Assembly: GCF_000385565.1 (NCBI RefSeq)
Contig: NC_021169.1
Coordinates: 248,001-312,000 of the forward strand
Direction of reading: 5' to 3'
Origin: Archaeoglobus sulfaticallidus PM70-1
GTDB lineage: Archaea > Halobacteriota > Archaeoglobi > Archaeoglobales > Archaeoglobaceae
Length of the DNA: 64,000 nucleotides
In this document: piece after piece, positions 13,169-61,749 of the stretch
How positions within the stretch are numbered: the stretch's first letter is position 1
Layout of the letters: each line of letters starts with the position of its first letter
Program-made: the position numbers and the translations under genes
Notes under the pieces: model-generated
What the model saw: the letters and a program-made list of their open reading frames with translations, nothing else
Database searches by the model: none
Told to the model about the DNA's origin: nothing

Positions 13169-15586
13169 ATGGAGAAGAAAAACATCAAGATTACGGGAAT
13201 GAGTTGTGCATCGTGCGTTAAAGCTATCGAAACCGCCCTAAGGAAGCTCGAAGGAGTTGAGAATGTATCTGTCAATCTCGCTACTGAATCAGCCTATGTT
13301 GAATATGATCCTTCCAAGATCAGTCTTGAAAAGATGATTGAGACCATAAAAAGTATAGGCTACAGCGTTTTAGAAGACGAGAAAGCCATAACTGTGAAGA
13401 TAGGTGGAATGAGCTGTGCCATGTGTGCTAAATCCATAGAAACCACTGTAAGCAAACTGCCTGGAGTTAAGAGTGTCAGCGTTAACCTTTCCACAGAATC
13501 TGCTCGAATCATTTTTGATTCATCAACTACAAGCTTGGAAGATATAAAACAGGCGATAGAGAGCGTCGGCTACAGGTTCCTCGGGGTTGAAGGAGAAGAG
13601 AAGAGTAAAGAGGAAGGGGAAGATCATATCACGCAGATGAAGAGAAGACTTTTCTTCGCCGCTGCAACAGGAGCAGTTCTCCTCATTCTGACCTATGGGA
13701 GATTTATCGGCCTAAGTGTACCTTACAACAGCTGGATACAGCTGATTCTCGCAACACCCGTGATGCTTTACTCTGGCAGGAGCATGTTTTCAGCGGCAGC
13801 AAGAGCTCTCAGAAACAGAATGCTGAACATGGATGTTATGTATTCAATGGGTGTTGGAAGTGCTTTTGCAGCAAGTGTCCTCTCAACTCTCGGCTTTCTA
13901 CCGGAAGACTATCTCTTCTTCGAGACCTCAGTCCTGCTTTTAGCCTTCCTTTTACTCGGCAGAACTCTGGAGGCGGTTGCGAAAGGGAAAACAAGTGAGG
14001 CTATAAAGAAGCTGATGGGTCTGCAGGCAAAGACAGCAGTTGTGGTCAGAGATGGTAGAGAAATTGTTGTGTCAGTTGAGGATGTTAAAGTTGGAGACAT
14101 CGTAATAGTCAAACCGGGAGAAAAAATACCTGTTGACGGTGTGGTAATAGAGGGAGAAAGCTATGTTGACGAGTCGATGATCACAGGCGAACCAACTCCA
14201 AATCTCAAGAAGGTTAGCGATGAGGTCATCGCAGCTACAATAAACAAGAACAGCTTTCTGAAGATAAGAGCTACAAGAGTCGGGAAGGATACACTGCTTG
14301 CACAGATCATAAAACTGGTGGAGGAGGCAGTGGGCAGCAAGCCTCCGATACAGAGATTAGCTGATAAAATAGTTACTTACTTCATTCCAGCGGTTCTGAC
14401 AATAGCAGTTGGCTCTTTTGTCTACTGGTATTTCATCGCCGATGCTCCGGCAATATTCGCCTTCACAACCCTCGTTGCAGTTCTGGTAATAGCATGTCCC
14501 TGTGCTTTTGGTTTAGCAACACCTACAGCTTTAACTGTTGGAATGGGTAAGGGTGCAGAGCTCGGAATACTGATAAAGCATGGAGAAGCTCTTGAGATTG
14601 CAAGAAAAGTAAGTATCGTTGTCTTTGACAAGACGGGCACTCTTACAAAAGGCAGGCCGGAAGTTACAGATGTGACAGCTTTCGATGGAAGCGAAAAGGA
14701 AGTGTTGAAAATCGCCGCGATAGCAGAAAAGAGAAGCGAACATCCGCTGGCAGAAGCGATAGTGCGGAAGGCTGAAGCTGAGAAAATAAGTGTTGAAGAG
14801 CCTGAGAAGTTCGAGATTATCGCAGGTAAGGGGGTCGTTGCCTCGTTCAATGGTAATCGCATACTGGTTGGCAGCAGAAAACTGATGGTTGAAAACGGGC
14901 TTGCCGTTGATAAGAAGGTGGAGGATGCTTTACAGAAACTTGAAATGGAGGCAAAAACAGCAATACTCGTTGCTTCAAACGACAGAATTGTTGGAGTTAT
15001 TGGTATAGCAGATACGCTGAAAGAATCTGCTTTGGAGGCTATAGATGAACTCCACAAAATGGGCAAGAAAGTGGCAATGATAACCGGCGATAACAAAAGG
15101 ACTGCCACGGTAATTGCTAAAAAACTTGGAATAGATTTTGTTCTTGCCGAAATTCTGCCTCATCAGAAAGCTGAGGAGGTTAAAAGATTGCAGGAAAGCG
15201 GGGAAATAGTTGCATTCGTTGGTGATGGTATAAACGATGCTCCTGCTTTGGCTCAGGCAGATCTCGGCATTGCCATTGGAAGTGGCACAGACATAGCTAT
15301 TGAGAGCGGCGAAATTGTGCTGATGAGGGATGATTTGAGAGATGTGGTTGCAGCTATTCAGCTCAGCGAGAAGACACTGAACAAGATCAAACAGAACCTT
15401 TTCTGGGCGATGATATACAACTCCATGCTAATCCCAGCAGCGGCGGGTTTGCTGTATCCTATCTTTGGAGTGGTCTTCAGACCTGAATGGGCTGGAGCAG
15501 CGATGGCGATGAGCAGTGTCAGCGTTGTGACAAACTCCCTGCTGATGAAGAACTACATTCCGCCGGTCAGGAAGTTCAGGAAGTGA
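13169..15586 (+). CDS. copA: Copper-exporting P1B-type ATPase CopA
   Basis: 805 residues with two N-terminal HMA domains (CxxC at C13/C16 and C83/C86), eight transmembrane helices, the Cu(I) channel motif CPC (~442-444, in [14 protein letters not shown]), the phosphorylation site DKTGTLT (~488), HP motif (SEHPLAEA) and hinge [14 protein letters not shown]. The last two helices carry YN and M-x-x-SS (MAMSSVSVV), ligands of the Cu+ P1B-1 class. It pumps Cu(I) or Ag(I) out of the cytoplasm. First gene of the metal island; a CopZ-like chaperone gene follows after about 120 bases. Confidence 0.96.
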
Positions 15587-15708
15587 TTGAATGAACGAGA
15601 TTTGTAAAGAGTGTGGAAGTGGAGGGATGAAACCCCTCTAGCAGGTGTTGTGAGTGGTATTTGAGAAAGTATGGCAAAATTGTGAATAAAGGGGTAGGAG
15701 GTGGGAGT

Positions 15709-15912
15709 GTGAAGAAAGTCAGACTTGAGCTCTCCGGGCTTTCGTGTGGTGGCTGTGTAGGTGTTGTTAAGGCAGCTCTCGAGAACGCTGGAGCGAGGGT
15801 GGAGAGAATTACTCTCAACGAAGCAGAAATTGAGATAGGGGAAGGAGAGGACTTGGAGAAATATTTGAGAGCTGTCAAAGATGCGGGCTACGAGGCGAGG
15901 CTGAAAGAGTGA
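15709..15912 (+). CDS. CopZ-like HMA copper chaperone
   Basis: 67 residues from a GTG start, chosen because GGAGGTG lies 5 bases upstream; the open frame extends to 15661 without family likeness. A single HMA (ferredoxin-like) domain with the metal site LSCGGC near residues 10-15; note CGGC rather than the usual CxxC of CopA. Likely carries Cu(I) to the CopA HMA domains. Its last codon and stop overlap the start of the methyltransferase gene (GTGA), so they are translationally coupled. Confidence 0.85.
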   Translation: MKKVRLELSGLSCGGCVGVVKAALENAGARVERITLNEAEIEIGEGEDLEKYLRAVKDAGYEARLKE

Positions 15913-16538
15913 GAGTTCAAGCGAAGGTAGGAGAAGACAGGAAAAGGTACAACAGAATAGCAGCAATTTATGAGATTGCCGAGGCACCAATGGAACTCTT
16001 TTTATCTAAAAAATGGAGAAAGTACCTTTTCGAGAGAATCAACCCCTGTGAGGGCGATCGAATACTGGAGATTGGAGTTGGAACAGGGAAAAATGTCCCG
16101 TATTACAGGGATGGACACTATATCGCTGTAGATATAAGCGAGAAAATGATTTTTAAGGCTAAGGAGAGAGTGAGAAACTCCACCAAAGATGTGCAACTCA
16201 TTGTCAGTGATGCAGAATCACTACCTTTTAAAGATGATGTCTTCGACATCGTTTTCACAACTTTTGTCTTCTGCTCTGTGGAGAATCCGATAAAGGGTTT
16301 GAAGGAAGCATACAGAGTTCTCAAACCAGATGGCAGAGCTTTCTTCCTCGAACACATGTTGCCCAAGAATCGTTTAATCCAGCCGATCTTTCATCTGCTG
16401 AACCCCATTGCGAGAATGATGGGTCCTGAGATAAACAGGAAGACGGACGAAAATATAAGAAAGGCAGGGTTCAGCATAGTAAAAGAGGAGCATCTTTTAG
16501 GCACAGTTTTCAGACTAGTTGAAGCAGAAAAAGTCTGA
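15909..16538 (+). CDS. Class I SAM-dependent methyltransferase (UbiE/phospholipid-type)
   Basis: 209 residues. Motif I is ILEIGVGTGKNVPYY; motif II DAESLPFKDDVFDIVFTTFVFCSV and the post-motif AYRVLKPDGRAFFLEHM are typical of the UbiE/Coq5 and phosphatidylethanolamine methyltransferase group. Substrate cannot be read from the sequence; quinones, lipids or metal(loid)s such as arsenic are options, but no Cys triad of ArsM is present. Translation-coupled with the CopZ-like gene by a GTGA overlap, which is unusual for a copper chaperone and hints at a metal-linked role. Confidence 0.82.
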   Translation: MRVQAKVGEDRKRYNRIAAIYEIAEAPMELFLSKKWRKYLFERINPCEGDRILEIGVGTGKNVPYYRDGHYIAVDISEKMIFKAKERVRNSTKDVQLIVSDAESLPFKDDVFDIVFTTFVFCSVENPIKGLKEAYRVLKPDGRAFFLEHMLPKNRLIQPIFHLLNPIARMMGPEINRKTDENIRKAGFSIVKEEHLLGTVFRLVEAEKV

Positions 16539-16910
16539 ATGAAAAACCGGTTTCGTTTCATCACAGGTTGAAGTTCACATACACTAATATTTCTGTCCAC
16601 CTGCAGGGTTTCTGATCTCTTTAGCACTCCAGCCTTATTACATCTCATTCTTCACTCTTCTGAGTTTTGTCGAATACGAGTGTATACTTATTGAATACGC
16701 AGAAGAGAGCTAGTATTGATACTGGTTGGATGGTGAGACTGCTCATGGCTTGAGTATAGACGGGAAGCTCAGCATCGATTACAAAAGAGTCTTGGATAAT
16801 TTTATTTAGATTGCACTTTTAAAGCAGAATATCTCCGTCTAATAGTTCATTTAATGTCCTCGCAATAGCTTACATTGACCGTGAGACATACTCTGAGACT
16901 GAGAGTATTT
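16539..16910. other. Intergenic region, no gene supported
   Basis: A 372-base gap between the methyltransferase and the convergent membrane winged-helix gene. The only coding-like trace is an open stretch on + at 16720-16809 (ends KRVLDNFI then stop) without a start codon or family match; it may be a remnant or chance. Confidence 0.3.
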
Positions 16911-17444
16911 TTACCTATTTTTGCAATCCCTTAACCACTCACTCAAATATATTTTGTAAGTCTTACCGAATCTCTCTCTGACTATCAGATCCCTCTCTTC
17001 GAGTTTTTTCATTATCATTGAAATTTTTGACTGTGAGAATCCCGTCCTGAAGTGCAGCGAATCCTGAGTTATTCCTTCATTATCGTGTATGATTCTCAGA
17101 ATCTTGGCTTCATCATCGTTGAGAAGTCTGAGAGCGACGCTAAGCTTCTCATTATCTTTTCGCTCATTTTGATTCTCTTCATGATTTTTCAGATTCGTGT
17201 CTCTCTCCAAATTGCTCACTTCCGAGCTTGAAGTTTTCACAAGTGAGAGAATTATCATCGCAAGCCCCAGAAGTCCAAGAATGAATGGTAGGTAACTCAT
17301 GTAGTACGGCCCCATCATCATATAGTGGTGTAGATTCGGAAAAAGAAGGAACGAAGTGAATAGAAAGAAGGCTCCACCAATTAACAAAACAAATTCTGCA
17401 TTATTAAGCTCTGATATGCTTTTTACCTGAAGTTTCCCAGACAT
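16911..17444 (-). CDS. Membrane-anchored winged-helix regulator with Met/His-rich external loop
   Basis: 177 residues. Two transmembrane helices (~17-36 and ~52-70) are joined by the short loop NLHHYMMMGPYYMSY, rich in Met, His and Tyr; a charged linker (~75-100) leads to a C-terminal winged helix (DDEAKILRIIHDNEGITQDSLHF, SQSKISMIMKKLEERDLIVRE). The C-terminal domain belongs to the MarR-like family of archaeal membrane regulators. With the helix in the cytoplasm, the loop faces outside. Lying between copA and the CuA genes, it is a good candidate for a one-component sensor of external copper or silver. Sensing is inference; architecture is seen. Confidence 0.7.
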   Translation of the reverse strand: MSGKLQVKSISELNNAEFVLLIGGAFFLFTSFLLFPNLHHYMMMGPYYMSYLPFILGLLGLAMIILSLVKTSSSEVSNLERDTNLKNHEENQNERKDNEKLSVALRLLNDDEAKILRIIHDNEGITQDSLHFRTGFSQSKISMIMKKLEERDLIVRERFGKTYKIYLSEWLRDCKNR

Positions 17445-17582
17445 TTTAACACTGTAAAGTTAAATGAATATATGAGCGTTTTGGTGTTTTGGACACGTAA
17501 ACCTAATCAAAAAATAAAAGATAGTATATATAACCGAATAATATGCTAAAAGTAAAAGATTTAGTAAAAGAACTCAGCAGCT

Positions 17583-17792
17583 TTGAGAGAGACAATATAC
17601 CTCTTGGGTGAATCACCCCTCGCTTGCGCAAGAGCTTCCGGGCGGGTTTGCATAAGCCTTACCCCCGTAGGGGACACAACCCCTTGCTACTCCTATCCGT
17701 CCAATACAGCAGACTCGGAGCTACCTTTGAGCTTTCGGAAGACTCTCAAATCTACTTACTTGCTTGAGGCCGGACGCAGTATCCCTTAAAAA
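17583..17792 (-). ncRNA. Decayed IS200/IS605-type right end, omegaRNA-like
   Basis: This follows the TnpB remnant on the minus strand, where omegaRNA is encoded in IS200/IS605 elements. It has the expected compact hairpins: GGGTG-AAT-CACCC at 17606-17618, the palindrome CTTGCGCAAG at 17623-17632, and a pair CCCC/GGGG around 17670. The end at about 17606 would be the scaffold-guide junction. Whether it is still transcribed is unknown. Confidence 0.45.
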
Positions 17793-17888
17793 CTACTTCT
17801 TGATGATAGCCCTCGCAGAGCTCACATCTGCGTTTATCAGCCCGATTACGGATTTGAACAGGCCACGCTTTATCCTTCTCCAGGGTTC
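17793..17888 (-). pseudogene. TnpB (IS605/IS1341 family) C-terminal remnant
   Basis: Reading the minus strand from about 17888, the frame encodes EPWRRIKRGLFKS and then LINADVSSARAIIKK before TAG. This is the TnpB C-terminus: the RGLF piece after the zinc knuckle, the catalytic-site INAD and the final helix. The CPxC zinc pairs upstream are lost to a stop and shift, and nothing else of the ~400-residue protein remains. A relic of an insertion in the copper island. Confidence 0.65.
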
Positions 17889-17973
17889 TCGTCATGGCAA
17901 TTGAAATCTTAAATCAGCGTTCACTCCTTCGTTTTCAGTTAAAAGGAGTTTGCTTCTATAGATGACCAGAATG

Positions 17974-18000
17974 AAACGTTAGGTTTCTGTTTAAAACGTT
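17974..18000 (+). promoter_or_regulatory. Promoter of the Met-rich gene with repeated AAACGTT
   Basis: AAACGTT occurs at 17974-17980 and again at 17994-18000, overlapping a TATA-like TTTAAAA (17990-17996). The spacing is 20 bases, about two helical turns. A transcript from here would carry a leader of about 65-70 bases before ATG 18089. Regulator binding is inferred. Confidence 0.3.
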
Positions 18001-18088
18001 CTGAAAGATCTCGAAGCTTCTTTTTTCCAAGTTTTAGCACACAACATCTTTTGCCTTTGAGGTGAAACACTGATTGAGGTGATGCGAG

Positions 18089-18430
18089 ATGGATTGGAAA
18101 AAGGTTGGAGTTGTAATAGTAGCAATAGCAGCAGTTGCTGCGGTAGTATATACGGCAACTGCAACACCATTTGGATGGAGAGGATATGGATACGGAATGC
18201 CGATGGGCATGGGTGGAATGATGGGATACGGAATGCCAATGATGGGAGGACCAATGATGGGAGGATATGGAGCTGGATATGGTATGCCAGCGTATGACTA
18301 CCAGTATCCACAGGACCCATCGAATCAGAACCAGAATATCAACGAAACTTCTGAACAGTATCCTCAGACATACAATGTGCCCTACGGATACTACGGAGGA
18401 TGGCACTGCCCAATGATGGGGTACTGGTAA
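18089..18430 (+). CDS. Met/Gly/Tyr-rich membrane-anchored protein, putative copper binder
   Basis: 113 residues. One N-terminal transmembrane helix (~6-25, VGVVIVAIAAVAAVVYTATA), then an external low-complexity tail: a Met/Gly/Tyr repeat (GMPMGMGGMMGYGMPMM at ~38-54), a Gln/Asn/Pro spacer, and an end with WHCPMMGYW. Closely spaced methionines plus His and Cys are typical of extracellular Cu(I)/Ag(I)-binding proteins. No family recognised. GAGGTGAT precedes the ATG by 5 bases. Followed by the YHS gene, then the CuA genes, all on +. Metal binding is inferred from composition and context. Confidence 0.65.
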   Translation: MDWKKVGVVIVAIAAVAAVVYTATATPFGWRGYGYGMPMGMGGMMGYGMPMMGGPMMGGYGAGYGMPAYDYQYPQDPSNQNQNINETSEQYPQTYNVPYGYYGGWHCPMMGYW

Positions 18431-18446
18431 ACTGATTTAGCTCTAT

Positions 18447-18461
18447 TATTTTTTAATTTTT
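18447..18461 (+). terminator. T-rich tract after the Met-rich gene
   Basis: TATTTTTTAATTTTT follows the stop by 16 bases; a possible full or partial terminator before the YHS gene, whose Shine-Dalgarno GGAGGTGA comes next. Confidence 0.3.
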
Positions 18462-18475
18462 GGAGGAGGTGAAAA

Positions 18476-18700
18476 ATGTTCTGCAGGCACTCCCGACACA
18501 AACACGAAACGGAGACGAATGACAAAACAAAAGATCCAGTTTGTGGCATGGTAATAGACAGAGAAAAGGCAGTCAGTAAATCAGAATATATGGGTAAAAC
18601 ATACTACTTCTGCTCTCTTGACTGCAAAAAGACTTTCGATGAGAATCCTGAGAAGTATCTAAAAAAGAGATCGAGTGCATCAGGACACAGCTGCTGTTGA
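18476..18700 (+). CDS. YHS-domain metal-binding protein
   Basis: 74 residues. A YHS domain fills ~18-64: KDPVCGMVID at the start and YYFCSLDCKKTFDENPEKY at the end; the Cys residues of CGM and FCSLDC are the metal ligands. The N-terminus (MFCRHSRHKHE) and the C-terminus (SGHSCC) add further His and Cys. YHS domains occur in copper ATPases, monooxygenases and small metal-handling proteins. No signal peptide, so it is cytoplasmic. GGAGGTGA sits 5 bases before the ATG. It probably buffers or delivers copper to neighbours. Confidence 0.85.
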   Translation: MFCRHSRHKHETETNDKTKDPVCGMVIDREKAVSKSEYMGKTYYFCSLDCKKTFDENPEKYLKKRSSASGHSCC

Positions 18701-18824
18701 CAAACTTATTTTTATTAAATATTTTTTAATATAAGTTACAAATGAGCGTGCTAACTCTCAGAAACTAGCAGATGCTTCGGAAGGTTGAGAATAGAAGGTA
18801 AACCAAATTTAAGGAGGAGTTTAC

Positions 18825-20813
18825 ATGGTTAAAAAGGCAATCTTACCAGTTTTATCCGTTATGCTCGTCCTGTTGATTTCAAATGCTAACGCTCAAATTG
18901 TTAACGCTCAGGCTGAAAAAAGTTTCAGGGATTCTCCAACCAAGATAGTATACATTGAAGCATTTCAATTTGGATTTACTGTAAGGGCTATCCAAGAAGG
19001 CTCTGAACTGAAAGTATATCCTAAAGGTTCGGAACCCAGTGTTTTAGAAGTTAATAAGGGAGATAGAGTTCTATTCAGAGTAATTTCAAGGGATGTCACC
19101 CATGGTTTCTATATTGATGGCTACACACCCTCACCCTCGGATCAAAAGATCTTTGTGTTGCCGGGTAGAGTTCTGGAAGTCGGTCCAATAACTTTTGACA
19201 GGGAAGGAAAGTTCAAGCTTCGCTGCTCTGTAACCTGCGGGCCGCTGCATCCATTTATGGTTATGGACATAGTGGTCAAGCCGAACATACCCTACCACAT
19301 CCTCATAATATCCACGCTCGCGGTAGGTGGATTTACGCTACTGTACCTTCAGAGAAAACCCGAAAATAAACTGCTTGGAGGTCACGAAAGGGAGGTTGAC
19401 ATACTCAAAGCGAGGTTTATTGGTCCTATACTTGAAAAGATCCTCAAATGGAGAGGACTCCAGCTCTCGCTAATTCTACCCAGTATCTTCTTCTTCACTC
19501 TCGTTATTGTAGCCGGTTTCTTTGGAAACCCCACAGGTAATAGAAATTTTTCGATTGCTGTGGTTTGGATTCTCTGGTTTGCAATCGTAGAGTTCACAAT
19601 ACTTTTTGCGGGAAGATTCTGGTGTGCAGCATGCCCCATCCCTGTACTTGGTGAGTGGATTGCGAGAAGAAGAATCGTTGGTGTCAGCGAGCTCAAAATA
19701 AAAAGGAGGTGGCCAAGGGCTTTTAACAACATGTGGGTATCTGTTATCGGGTTCTTCGTACTCTCTCTATTCCTCCCATGGCTCGTAACAAGACCGCTCG
19801 TAACAGCAGTGGTATTTTTAACCCTTGTTATTGCTGCAACGCTGCTCTACACCCTATATCCGGGGAGGTACTTCTGCCGGCACATATGTCCGGCAAGCGG
19901 CTACATCGGATATCACTCCAATGTCTCCATTTTATCAGTTAGATCGAGAGATAGAGAGATCTGCCGATCTCACAAAAGTAAAGACTGTATCAAAGGGAAT
20001 TCAAAGGGCTATGGATGCCCATGGAAGCTCTATCCTGGCGGAAACTGTGAGAACACTTACTGCGGGGAGTGCTTTGAGTGCATTAAATCCTGTCCTAAAA
20101 ACAACATGACGGTGAAAATCAGAATGATTGGAAAAGACCTTCCAAAAATTGCTGCAAAAGCGAAAAACAGATTTGATGAGGCCTGGATGGGTTTCACAAG
20201 GTTTGTACTAGCTATATTCTATGAGCTAATCTTCTTCGGATCATACTACTGGCTGAAAGACTGGGGGAATATGAGCAACGTTTACGGTGCGAACCTCGAA
20301 ACTGCAAGACTGTTAATCCCTCCACCGTGGGGAGTTATTAACTGGATCAAGTGGGCATTGCTCGTTTCAACACTCGCACTCGTTGCCTATCCAGCAGTTT
20401 TCTATGCCTTCTCATGGATTTCCAAAAAGGTCGCTGACACCAGAATGCCTGCAAAGCAGATTTTCCTCTCTTTCAGCTATGCTCTTGCTCCTTACGGACT
20501 CTTTGTATGGATAGCATTCGCGGTATCACTGCTCGCAGTATTCTGGGCTTACCCGCTAACAGCTTTTTCAGACCCGTTTGGCTGGGGATGGAATTTTGGT
20601 ACAGAATTTGAATGGAGTCCGCTTTATCCTGAATGGCTTCCTTTCCTTCAGGCTCCCCTGATATTTACTGGACTCGCACTTGCAATAATCACTACATATA
20701 GCATAGCGAAAGAGCTGTTCGGTGAGCATCACAGGGCTTTCAGGGCAACAGCAGTGGTGAGCTTATTGCATATCATTTCTGCTCTGATCCTGATAAAAGT
20801 TATTGCGGGGTGA
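18825..20813 (+). CDS. CuA cupredoxin fused to NapH/NosR-like polyferredoxin membrane protein
   Basis: 662 residues. Signal peptide 1-24; external cupredoxin domain (~35-150) with a full CuA ligand set: His in DVTHGFYI and then C-x3-C-x3-H-x2-M in CSVTCGPLHPFM. A helix (~158-176) leads to a membrane part with Cys motifs like NapH/NosR/CcoG: GRFWCAACPIP, GRYFCRHICPASG, then a cytoplasmic cluster domain with CGECFECIKSCP. Five further helices end the protein. It could move electrons between Fe-S clusters and an external copper centre. Shine-Dalgarno GGAGGAG precedes it; the second CuA gene starts 4 bases downstream. No oxidase or NosZ is nearby, and function is unproven. Confidence 0.8.
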   Translation: MVKKAILPVLSVMLVLLISNANAQIVNAQAEKSFRDSPTKIVYIEAFQFGFTVRAIQEGSELKVYPKGSEPSVLEVNKGDRVLFRVISRDVTHGFYIDGYTPSPSDQKIFVLPGRVLEVGPITFDREGKFKLRCSVTCGPLHPFMVMDIVVKPNIPYHILIISTLAVGGFTLLYLQRKPENKLLGGHEREVDILKARFIGPILEKILKWRGLQLSLILPSIFFFTLVIVAGFFGNPTGNRNFSIAVVWILWFAIVEFTILFAGRFWCAACPIPVLGEWIARRRIVGVSELKIKRRWPRAFNNMWVSVIGFFVLSLFLPWLVTRPLVTAVVFLTLVIAATLLYTLYPGRYFCRHICPASGYIGYHSNVSILSVRSRDREICRSHKSKDCIKGNSKGYGCPWKLYPGGNCENTYCGECFECIKSCPKNNMTVKIRMIGKDLPKIAAKAKNRFDEAWMGFTRFVLAIFYELIFFGSYYWLKDWGNMSNVYGANLETARLLIPPPWGVINWIKWALLVSTLALVAYPAVFYAFSWISKKVADTRMPAKQIFLSFSYALAPYGLFVWIAFAVSLLAVFWAYPLTAFSDPFGWGWNFGTEFEWSPLYPEWLPFLQAPLIFTGLALAIITTYSIAKELFGEHHRAFRATAVVSLLHIISALILIKVIAG

Positions 20814-20817
20814 GAGG

Positions 20818-21204
20818 ATGAAAATTTTCTGGGAGATAGTAGCTTTATCGCTTGTTGTTCTCGCTTTGGCATTACCTCTCGCACTTTTGAGCATGGACAG
20901 AGAGTTCTTAGCTGAAGAGAACGGCACGGTTGTGATACGGGCTTACATAGCAGAGGCTGGAGGCTTTAAGCCAAACCTCGTTGTGGTTGAGAAGGGGCAG
21001 AAAGTGAGACTCATTGTGGAAAGCATGGATGTCGTTCACGGCTTCACAATTCCAAGCTTGGGCATCAACACCGGACCTATAGATGTTGGAAAGAGAAAGG
21101 TAATTGAATTCGTGGCAGAAAAGGAAGGTATATACTTTTTCGGATGCTCCGTGCGGTGCAGTCCCTACCACTTCTTCATGCGGGGGATTATAATTGTAAA
21201 ATAA
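20818..21204 (+). CDS. Membrane-anchored CuA-domain protein (cytochrome oxidase subunit II-like)
   Basis: 128 residues from ATG 20818 (GGGGTGA 4 bases upstream; the frame opens at a GTG 15 bases earlier). One N-terminal transmembrane anchor (~6-26), then a cupredoxin domain with all CuA ligands: DVVHGFTIP and CSVRCSPYHFFM (C-x3-C-x3-H-x2-M). It lacks the usual second membrane helix of subunit II. It starts 4 bases after the fused CuA-polyferredoxin gene, so the two should be made together and may exchange electrons. No subunit I gene is present. Confidence 0.85.
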   Translation: MKIFWEIVALSLVVLALALPLALLSMDREFLAEENGTVVIRAYIAEAGGFKPNLVVVEKGQKVRLIVESMDVVHGFTIPSLGINTGPIDVGKRKVIEFVAEKEGIYFFGCSVRCSPYHFFMRGIIIVK

Positions 21205-21568: not shown

Positions 21569-21590
21569 TATTTGAACAATTGTTCAAATA
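21561..21590 (+). promoter_or_regulatory. TATA box and perfect 22-bp operator of the ArsR-ZntA operon
   Basis: TTTATAAG (21561-21568) is followed at 21569-21590 by a perfect palindrome TATTTGAACAATTGTTCAAA plus TA. The TATA spacing places the transcription start at about 21590, the A of the ATG, so the mRNA is leaderless and a repressor bound here would block initiation. ArsR/SmtB operators are typically such AT-rich 12-2-12-like palindromes. Confidence 0.75.
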
Positions 21591-21964
21591 TGGGAAAGAG
21601 TAAAAAGGCACCTGTCTGTAAAGATGAAAGTATTGGGGAGTACATTGAGGTTGTTGCTTCAAGTTTACCACCTGATGAGCGCATAATTGAGCTTTCCGAA
21701 TTCCTTGAAGCTTTTGGCGACTCCTCGCGCATTAAAATACTCTTAACTTTATCTAAACGCGAACTCTGCACCTGCGATATCTCTGCAATAACTGGCTTAT
21801 CAGTTTCTGCTGTTTCACATCAGCTCAGAATTCTGAGAGACAAAAAACTGGTAAAGTACAGGCGGGAAGGCAGGAATGTCTACTACAGCTTAGATGATGA
21901 ACACGTTGCTGCTATTCTGGACACAGCATTGGAACATATTGAAGAGGGAAGTGGAAGGAAATGA
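21590..21964 (+). CDS. ArsR/SmtB-family metal-responsive repressor
   Basis: 124 residues from ATG 21590; a TTG at 21572 in the operator is less likely. Winged helix of the ArsR family: SSRIKILLTL, then ELCTCDISAITGLSVSAVSHQLRILRDKKLVKYRREGRNVYYSL. The CTC in helix alpha-3 (ELCTCD) is the classical ELCxCD metal site for As, Cd, Pb or Zn; an N-terminal Cys (APVCKD) could complete a CadC-like site. It should release the palindromic operator when metal binds. Stop overlaps the ATPase start by 4 bases (ATGA). Confidence 0.92.
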   Translation: MGKSKKAPVCKDESIGEYIEVVASSLPPDERIIELSEFLEAFGDSSRIKILLTLSKRELCTCDISAITGLSVSAVSHQLRILRDKKLVKYRREGRNVYYSLDDEHVAAILDTALEHIEEGSGRK

Positions 21965-24021
21965 AGAAGTGCAAGCTGAAGAACCTTGACTGTGCAAGCT
22001 GTGCTGTTAAAATAGAGGAGGAGCTGAAAAAACTGGAAGGCGTAAGGTTCGCTTCTGTAAATTTCTCCACTTCCGAGCTTGTTGTTGATACAGAGGACAT
22101 CGAGAAAGTCATTGAAACCATAAAGAAAGTGGAACCAGAAGTTGAAATCATAGATCTCGATGAGGATGGTAAGGAAAGAGAGAAGGATGAAGGAGTATCT
22201 AAAAAAGAAATCATTCCGATTGTTGTCTCTGCGATTCTGTTCATCTTAGGAGTAACCCTAGAAGGTTTTCTACACCCAATTCCCGCAGCTGAATACACCG
22301 TACTTCTTTCAGCCTACCTAATAGTTGGCTGGAGAGTTCTCTGGAAGGCCGCCAGAAACCTTACAAAGGGAATTGTATCTGACGAGAACTTTCTTCTGAG
22401 CTTAGCTACCATAGGTGCCATTGCGATCCATGAAATGCCCGAAGCTGTTGGTGTTATGCTCTTCTTCAGAGTGGGGGAACTCTTCCAGGATATCGCAGTG
22501 GGAAGGTCCAGGCGCTCAATAAAAGCCCTGCTGGAAATAAAGCCTACCTTTGCAAACCTGAAGGTTGATGGGAAAACAGTAAGGGCAAAGCCGGAGGATG
22601 TGAAGGTTGGAGATCTCATTGTTGTCAGGCCCGGAGAGAAAATACCTTTGGATGGTGTTGTGGTTAAAGGCACTTCAGTGGTTGATACCTCTGCCTTAAC
22701 TGGTGAATCAAAGCCAAGCAGTGTTGCCGAAGGAGATGAAGTCCTTTCAGGTATGGTGAACATGAGCGGTCTTCTTACAGTAAGAGTTACAAAGCCATTC
22801 AGCGATTCAACTGTCTCAAGAATACTCCAGCTTGTAGAGGAGGCGGGAAGCAGAAAGGCAAGAGCTGAAAAATTTATAACCCGTTTTGCCCGTTATTACA
22901 CACCTGCAGTTATAGCCATGGCTGTAAGCATTGCAGCACTTCCACCGCTGATACTTGGTGAACCGTTTACTACATGGATCTATCGTGCCCTCGTTTTGCT
23001 CGTCATTTCATGCCCCTGCGCCCTCGTGTTGTCTGTTCCTCTCAGCTACTTCGCCTCCATTGGCAAAGCTGCCAGAGAGGGAATACTGATCAAGGGTGCC
23101 AATTTTATCGATGCCCTGAGATCTACAAGAATTGTCGCTTTCGATAAAACTGGAACGCTTACGAAAGGTAGTTTCAGGGTTGCAGAGGTTGTGGCGAAGA
23201 ATGGATTTAGCAAGGAAAATGTGCTAAAGTTTGCTGCTCTCGTTGAGATGCATTCGAACCATCCCATCGCCAAGTCGATAATCGACGCATATGGGGAGAT
23301 AGGTGGCTCGGTGAAGAGTTATAAAGAACTTGCAGGAAGAGGCGTTAGAGCAGAAATTGATGACTACACGATAATAGCCGGTAACGATGCTCTGATGCAT
23401 GAAATGAATATAGAACACGACTCGTGTGATGTTGAAGGGACAGTTGTTCATGTTGCTGTCAATGGGGTTTATGCTGGATATATAATTGTGTCAGATCAGC
23501 TGAAAGACGATGCGAGGGAGGCGGTGGAGGATCTGAAAGAACTTGGATGTAGAGTTGTGATGGTCACCGGAGATAGCAGAGAGATCGCCGAAAGAGTCGC
23601 TTCTCAGCTGGGTGTTGATGAATATTATGCCGAACTGCTTCCTGAGGATAAAGTGAGGGTTATAGAGGGACTTAAAGCTGAAGATGGCATTGTAGCTTTT
23701 GCTGGAGACGGTATAAACGATGCTCCAGTCATAGCCAGAGCAGATGTTGGTATAGCAATGGGGGGACTCGGGAGTGAAGCTGCAATTGAGGTAGCTGATG
23801 TCGTCATAATGGATGATAAGCCATCGAAAGTAGCGAGATCCATCAGGCTTTCGCAGCGTACACAGCGCATAGTCTGGCAGAACATAAGCTTTGCTCTGGC
23901 TGTAAAGGGATTTTTCATAGCCTTTGGATCTCTTGGAATAGCAACAATGTGGGAGGCGGTCTTTGCCGATGTTGGTGTCACTCTCATTGCTGTCCTCAAC
24001 TCAATGAGAATTTTAAGGTGA
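21961..24021 (+). CDS. Zn/Cd/Pb-exporting P1B-type ATPase (ZntA/CadA-like)
   Basis: 686 residues. One N-terminal HMA-like domain with CxxC (C11/C14), followed by an acidic linker with Asp/Glu, then eight helices with CPC in SCPCALVLSVPL (~351), DKTGTLT (~395), HP (SNHPIAKS) and [14 protein letters not shown]. The CPCALV sequence and the final-helix Asp-Gly (FADVGVTL region) put it in the P1B-2 class for divalent Zn, Cd and Pb, unlike CopA at 13169. Translation-coupled to the ArsR-type repressor, which is the expected regulator. Confidence 0.93.
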   Translation: MKKCKLKNLDCASCAVKIEEELKKLEGVRFASVNFSTSELVVDTEDIEKVIETIKKVEPEVEIIDLDEDGKEREKDEGVSKKEIIPIVVSAILFILGVTLEGFLHPIPAAEYTVLLSAYLIVGWRVLWKAARNLTKGIVSDENFLLSLATIGAIAIHEMPEAVGVMLFFRVGELFQDIAVGRSRRSIKALLEIKPTFANLKVDGKTVRAKPEDVKVGDLIVVRPGEKIPLDGVVVKGTSVVDTSALTGESKPSSVAEGDEVLSGMVNMSGLLTVRVTKPFSDSTVSRILQLVEEAGSRKARAEKFITRFARYYTPAVIAMAVSIAALPPLILGEPFTTWIYRALVLLVISCPCALVLSVPLSYFASIGKAAREGILIKGANFIDALRSTRIVAFDKTGTLTKGSFRVAEVVAKNGFSKENVLKFAALVEMHSNHPIAKSIIDAYGEIGGSVKSYKELAGRGVRAEIDDYTIIAGNDALMHEMNIEHDSCDVEGTVVHVAVNGVYAGYIIVSDQLKDDAREAVEDLKELGCRVVMVTGDSREIAERVASQLGVDEYYAELLPEDKVRVIEGLKAEDGIVAFAGDGINDAPVIARADVGIAMGGLGSEAAIEVADVVIMDDKPSKVARSIRLSQRTQRIVWQNISFALAVKGFFIAFGSLGIATMWEAVFADVGVTLIAVLNSMRILR

Positions 24022-61613: not shown

Positions 61614-61749
61614 TGGGGTCGGTGGGATTTGAACCCACGACTGGCGGGTCTCTTCGGGTCAGCGCTCCAACGGGTCATCACAGCTCAGCAGACCCATCAT
61701 TCATCACACCGCTGGAGCCCGCCGCGCTTCCTGGCTACGCCACGACCCC
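61614..61749 (-). tRNA. tRNA-Trp (CCA) with intron
   Basis: Exons are 61712-61749 and 61614-61649, intron 61650-61711. Mature tRNA is 74 bases: acceptor GGGGTCG/CGACCCC, anticodon stem GCGGG/CCCGC with loop CT-CCA-GA, T arm GTGGG-TTCAAAT-CCCAC, discriminator A. The intron is between positions 37 and 38, the usual archaeal site. CCA end is not encoded. Confidence 0.92.
61650..61711 (-). ncRNA. Box C/D sRNA in the tRNA-Trp intron
   Basis: The 62-base intron holds, in order on the minus strand, box C GTGATGA, box D' CTGA, box C' TGATGA and box D CTGA. The guide before box D (CCGTTGGAG) pairs with 9 bases of the tRNA anticodon region, and the fifth base before the box matches C34, giving 2'-O-methyl C34. 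The guide before D' (TGGGTCT) pairs with AGACCCG, pointing to position 39. These are the known targets of archaeal tRNA-Trp introns. Confidence 0.85.

Follow-up and report, generated by a model that had tools for sequence, protein, structure and literature searches.

A CuA-polyferredoxin-CuA module in a copper island of Archaeoglobus sulfaticallidus: a candidate orphan branch of a widespread respiratory module

CuA sites are normally viewed as entry ports of oxidases and of NosZ, which raises the question of what two adjacent CuA proteins do in a copper island of Archaeoglobus sulfaticallidus PM70-1, where neither enzyme accompanies them. The island lies in the window, by which we mean the whole 64 kb stretch of DNA analysed (positions 248001–312000 of the genome, G000, a single contig of 2,076,931 bases); feature coordinates below are those of the window. 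An earlier note on this DNA had seen that the window encodes neither an oxidase nor NosZ, and held that a nosZ or coxA gene elsewhere, co-regulated with the cluster, would make it an ordinary accessory set. Profile searches extend the absence to the whole genome, and the refutation named in the note did not arise: haem-copper oxidase subunit I (PF00115, COX1) gave 0 matches, matches to the NosZ propeller (TIGR04246) and L-NosZ (NF052460) models are confined to CuA regions, and no COX1-type NOR, EB_dh protein, cytochrome d1/cd1 or molybdopterin-binding match of NarG size was found. Multihaem cytochromes were considered as partners and set aside, as four stretches dense in the CXXCH pattern contain no multihaem ORF. 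The operon of the CuA module itself encodes no acceptor.

The first CuA protein (18825–20813, + strand; 662 amino acids) is a C-terminally extended NapH/NosR-like polyferredoxin fused to a CuA cupredoxin at residues ~40–152, with the ligands H93, C134, C138, H142 and M145 in the motifs DVTH93 and C134-SVT-C138-GPL-H142-PF-M145. Its gene overlaps by 11 bases that of a second cupredoxin (20803–21204, + strand; 133 amino acids), which carries a single transmembrane (TM) anchor at its N-terminus and the motifs DVVH and C115-SVR-C119-SPY-H-FF-M. The two full ligand sets (His, Cys-x3-Cys, His, Met) read by the earlier note are therefore present in both proteins, and the cupredoxin fold was checked for the fused one, whose AlphaFold model (33 sequences; pLDDT 88.3, pTM 0.86) fits the CuA domain of Thermus ba3 at an rmsd of 2.0. 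The shorter protein (1.9e-12) clears the cut-off for Pfam COX2; its fused neighbour scores 20.5 bits, slightly under the cut-off of 22 bits, and matches CoxB and ba3 CuA sequences despite this score. Both match models of COX2, CoxB, NosZ and nitrosocyanin together with CuA proteins of solved structure, and COX2, NosZ, nitrosocyanin and CupA are among the PDB matches of the 133-residue protein. By sequence, both are classed as CuA cupredoxins of the COX2/NosZ type and would be expected to bind copper. The ligand set is not a product of chance, since 38 of the 41 loci with an identified first domain have that CuA motif in full.

The membrane part of the fused protein, which the earlier note had recognised as a polyferredoxin, matches Fer4_5 and, under their curated cut-offs, NapH models. 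It carries CxxCP and CxxxCP motifs together with the ferredoxin site CxxCxxCxxxCP, all invariant among 33 homologues with few exceptions. The protein is related to the NapH/MauN subfamily and is not a member of it (31.5 vs 213.05 bits for TIGR02163). Bacterial NosR, which is linked to NosZ, likewise joins an exoplasmic redox domain to a NapH-like Fe-S membrane domain, but it has an FMN-binding domain where the fused protein has its CuA cupredoxin; PF04205, the model for the FMN-binding domain, gave no match in the fused protein, which is accordingly not a NosR. Pyrohabitans (L077) has a true NosR in addition to the CuA module. Among the Foldseek matches listed, none is to the C-terminal membrane domain of the fused protein.

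Beyond the window, a profile search found the module in 39 public loci of Archaea and Bacteria and in Ferroglobus in addition, nearly always in the order CuA, polyferredoxin, CuA, and the window genes show this order as well, with the C-terminal TM extension of the polyferredoxin. The Fe-S to CuA chain proposed in the earlier note fits this comparative evidence, but the note had missed that the module is widespread and that its basic gene set is not new, having been described in 2015. In the nar operon of Methanoperedens, a NapH with five extra TM helices stands between two HCO II genes (PMC4683180, 2015). The three parts and their order are identical to those of the window, with the five extra helices following the NapH-like part; in Methanoperedens, however, the cupredoxin has its own gene, and narGHJ and orf7 accompany the set, whereas the window is without nitrate reductase. 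In A. fulgidus, AF0141–AF0144 have been described as a nitrate-reductase-like "nitrate reductase-associated respiratory complex" that is raised on sulfate, is conserved in A. sulfaticallidus and neighbours nosZ in Ferroglobus (PMC4543118). These four genes correspond to the orthologous tail protein (see below), CuA, NapH-like protein and CuA of the window, and the two species share the clade context and the regulator, with a CopB-like ATPase nearby in A. fulgidus. The fused gene is one gene in the window but is split into two frames within the first TM helix in A. fulgidus (L151:12106–13976), and, unlike AF0141–AF0144, the window module is adjoined by CopA, CopZ-like and YHS genes.

The neighbours of the module differ across the family. 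NosZ adjoins it in seven loci (Ferroglobus, G015; Pyrohabitans; Geothermarchaeum; four bacteria), the Ferroglobus copy having a full NosZ plus NosL and NosD beside it, and NarG homologues neighbour it in eight, including Methanoperedens. From these neighbours, the acceptor of the sister branches is probably NosZ or NarGH, and in the most economical reading the terminal enzyme would have been exchanged between lineages. Two Archaeoglobales copies (L068 and L072, in G011 and on contig 15 of G019) lie beside a molybdoenzyme and an EB_dh protein; in these, neither cupredoxin has kept its CuA ligands, and the rest is retained. In Thermofilaceae (L074:1442–3211), a protein adjoining the module consists of an N-terminal CuA-like cupredoxin, with a CuA motif of its own, and then a d1/L-NosZ-like beta-propeller; in L-NosZ, the two domains come in the opposite order. 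The Archaeoglobales genome G017, which also has a CuA module, carries a gene for a subunit of the COX1 family together with one for a haem-c subunit and a UbiA-like gene (L127:3673–6845); no NCBIfam model matched this COX1-family subunit.

A tree of 43 polyferredoxins places the protein of the window in a monophyletic group with those of G003, G008, G019 (contig 34) and the Thermoplasmatota MAG L071 (support 99/95). Both CuA sites are retained in all five members of this copper-island clade and, by inspection, in A. fulgidus (G131). The membership of the window copy in a well-supported clade that retains both CuA sites is new here, as are the tail protein, winged-helix regulator and paired RAAACGTT boxes that its members have in common and, in four genomes, a Met-rich mono-haem cytochrome c encoded elsewhere. 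The tail protein (18089–18430, + strand), identified by alignment, is small, Met/Gly-rich and single-TM, with the C-terminal tail YGYYGGWHCPMMGYW. Such a protein, ending YGYYGG-HCPMMGYW, is encoded directly upstream of the module in the clade and is present in the Thermoplasmatota MAG too. Among 393 genomes of the phylum, only 5 contain the CPMMGYW coding pattern, and each of these also has the module; in G003, tail-protein gene and module lie on different contigs.

The possible membrane sensor of the earlier note proved to be a membrane-anchored winged-helix regulator (16911–17444, − strand; Pfam DUF7343/MarR, alignment and TM scan) with two TM helices and the sequence HHYMMMGPYYM between them, a loop recurring as HHYMMMGPxY in about half of the copies. 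Each of the five copper-island loci included in the tree has the regulator, as does A. fulgidus. As a module-specific component it was rejected, as it has close relatives in many Archaeoglobaceae, including module-less genomes, and its specificity for the module is a matter of local linkage only. A pair of RAAACGTT boxes (17973–18005, + strand; boxes at 17973–17980 and 17993–18000, 20 bp apart, the second extended to AAAACGTTCTGAA at 17993–18005) accounts for two of the three occurrences in the whole 64 kb. Related genomes have the 20-bp spacing ahead of their tail-protein genes; A. fulgidus has a degenerate version of the first box, and L071 did not show this spacing. A purely regulatory reading of the AAAACGTT motif was set aside, as the end of a methyltransferase frame overlaps it in A. 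fulgidus and G019. Since the boxes remain in the window and in G003, where the overlapping frame has been lost, a regulatory role is favoured, though not proven, and the pair is best regarded as a candidate operator.

The remaining genes that the earlier note had listed for the island are all present, including the Met-rich protein. The CopA-type Cu(I) P-type ATPase (13169–15586, + strand) scores 608 bits against a cut-off of 397 for TIGR01511 and contains Pfam E1-E2_ATPase and two HMA domains. It is followed by a CopZ-like HMA copper chaperone with a CGGC motif (15661–15912, + strand), which matches CopZ models of NCBIfam at 1e-8 to 1e-4, under cut-off, and the real start of which is probably downstream of the listed TTG. 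To this list can be added a UbiE/class I SAM methyltransferase (15909–16538, + strand; Pfam Methyltransf_11 and Ubie_methyltran, synteny), relatives of which immediately precede the tail-protein gene in A. fulgidus, G019 and G008-C16. The metal-binding YHS-domain protein (18476–18700, + strand; Pfam YHS 2.7e-18) was rejected as a constant part of the module, as it stands upstream of the fused gene in the window only and, in G023, beside its remnant. G023 has lost the CuA module, with YHS and Met-rich tail genes retained and the fused CuA gene reduced to a short remnant (L061:5050–5760). Directly after the second CuA gene lies an apparent Cd/Zn efflux unit under its own control (21569–24021, + strand), probably separate from the CuA module: a perfect 22-bp palindrome, TATTTGAACAATTGTTCAAATA (21569–21590), at the probable start of a gene for a CadC-like ArsR regulator with an ELCTC motif, and a Zn/Cd-type P1B ATPase. 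A role of the ArsR/ATPase pair (21572–24021) as copper genes was rejected from the scores, the ATPase reaching 531 bits with TIGR01512 and remaining under the cut-off of the copper model TIGR01511. Elsewhere in the window, a tRNA that bears an intron and contains a C/D box sRNA (sR3) is located at 61614–61749 on the − strand.

A candidate acceptor is a Met-rich, membrane-anchored mono-haem cytochrome c of the Cytochrome_CBB3 family, the body of which is strongly conserved and whose co-occurrence with the CuA module was drawn from four module-bearing genomes (A. sulfaticallidus, G003, G019 and A. fulgidus). Its gene lies ~2 kb from the module in G019. In A. sulfaticallidus it is at ~233 kb of the genome (about 232.9–233.5 kb), 15 kb ahead of the window, flanked by cyd-like genes on one side and a CopB-like ATPase on the other. 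The surrounding region (L156, G000:C1:224000–243000) contains two side-by-side cytochrome bd subunit I-like genes, the cytochrome c and the ATPase, which is His-rich. The A. fulgidus cytochrome at L155:7216–7770 would, from description and position, be AF0190; AF0189–AF0190, described as cytochrome_CBB3-type, rise together with AF0141–AF0144 on sulfate (PMC4543118). Convergent with this cytochrome c gene is a second, frame-broken copy of the tail gene with the same AAACGTTCTGAA leader (L155:6600–7010). A halocyanin/amicyanin-like blue copper lipoprotein (G000:C1:1055296–1055640) is a possible further electron carrier; as the acceptor it was set aside, since searches of two clade members, G003 and G008, did not reveal it.

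We consider it an even bet that the window holds an orphaned metal-island branch of this widespread respiratory module, in which electrons flow outward from Fe-S clusters through CuA to an exoplasmic acceptor under metal control. Menaquinol (or reduced ferredoxin) would feed the cytoplasm-facing Fe-S clusters of the NapH/NosR-like protein; from these, electrons would traverse the membrane to the CuA that the same polypeptide holds on the exoplasmic side, move on to the second CuA protein and reach an exoplasmic acceptor, for which we propose the cytochrome c in Archaeoglobus. Expression would probably be controlled by metal via the membrane regulator and the RAAACGTT boxes, while CopA, the CopZ-like protein and the HCPMMGYW tail protein would supply copper. 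This reading is suggested by the CuA ligands and fold, the near-constant gene order, the NosZ and NarG neighbours, the retention of both CuA sites in the copper-island clade as against their loss in the two molybdoenzyme/EB_dh-linked copies, the restriction of the tail-protein pattern to genomes with the module, the conservation of the cytochrome c and its proximity to the module in G019, and the joint rise of AF0141–AF0144 and AF0189–AF0190. Against it stand an operon without an acceptor gene, an apparent CuA-cytochrome link that consists of co-occurrence in four genomes, and box conservation that partly overlaps the methyltransferase frame in some genomes. Furthermore, we know of no obvious high-potential exoplasmic acceptor in sulfate reducers, which also counts against it. 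More tentatively, the module may be a metal-regulated two-CuA quinol:cytochrome c oxidoreductase in the copper island of strict anaerobes without haem-copper oxidase or NosZ, with the HCPMMGYW protein as dedicated copper donor to CuA and the membrane winged-helix protein as a sensor of extracellular copper.

The neighbouring genes make copper handling the main rival, although we regard it as somewhat doubtful. The CuA domains and the Fe-S protein would here constitute an exoplasmic copper redox or chaperone system, either a CcoG-like cupric reductase or a CupA-like Cu(I) carrier, working with CopA, the CopZ-like protein, the tail protein and YHS. CcoG (a polyferredoxin and copper reductase) and CupA (a CuA-like cupredoxin and copper chaperone) do resemble the window proteins and belong to copper contexts, and to our knowledge neither has the CuA-polyferredoxin-CuA architecture. 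Copper handling would account for the copper and metal genes around the module, the obligate HCPMMGYW protein, the Met/His-rich loop of the regulator, the CupA match and the CopB-like ATPases near the module in A. fulgidus, G008 and G019, but both full CuA electron-transfer ligand sets are retained and the nearest relatives of the module adjoin terminal reductases.

An improbable alternative to outward flow is a part in sulfate respiration, as proposed for AF0141–AF0144, with electrons passing from reduced ferredoxin through the NapH-like protein to menaquinone and on to Qmo, in keeping with the induction seen in A. fulgidus on sulfate with CO (PMC4543118). This would leave the two exoplasmic CuA sites without a role, and the module is absent from most of the relatives searched, 11 of 40 genomes being matched. 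The difference between sulfate and thiosulfate might, moreover, be a copper effect, because thiosulfate binds copper. An N-oxide (N2O, NO or nitrite) relic or detoxification arm with its terminal enzyme lost or unrecognised is very unlikely, for although it draws support from the NosZ of Ferroglobus and from NarGH or d1-like propellers at other loci, the genome searches returned none of the candidate enzymes (NosZ, L-NosZ, COX1-type NOR, NarG-size molybdoenzyme, EB_dh, cd1), and the clade-wide conservation of the CuA ligands argues that the module is not a decaying relic. The nitrogen oxides raised by the earlier note suit the sister clades with NosZ and NarGH neighbours but not this organism, which is without those enzymes; Archaeoglobus species do not grow by reduction of nitrate or iron (PMC8322695). 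The observation in the note is confirmed, and its interpretation stands in part, with the copper-assembly module that it suggested ranking as a rival.

Should the outward flow of electrons through CuA be correct, a conserved branch with two CuA sites in sulfate reducers without oxidase and NosZ would show CuA to be a general exoplasmic electron carrier, and the complex that A. fulgidus induces on sulfate, of open function since 2015, would be explained. The cytochrome c, the tail protein, the regulator and the candidate operator provide concrete partners to test, and the family-wide view suggests that a single module can be recruited for NosZ, for NarGH and possibly for further reductases.
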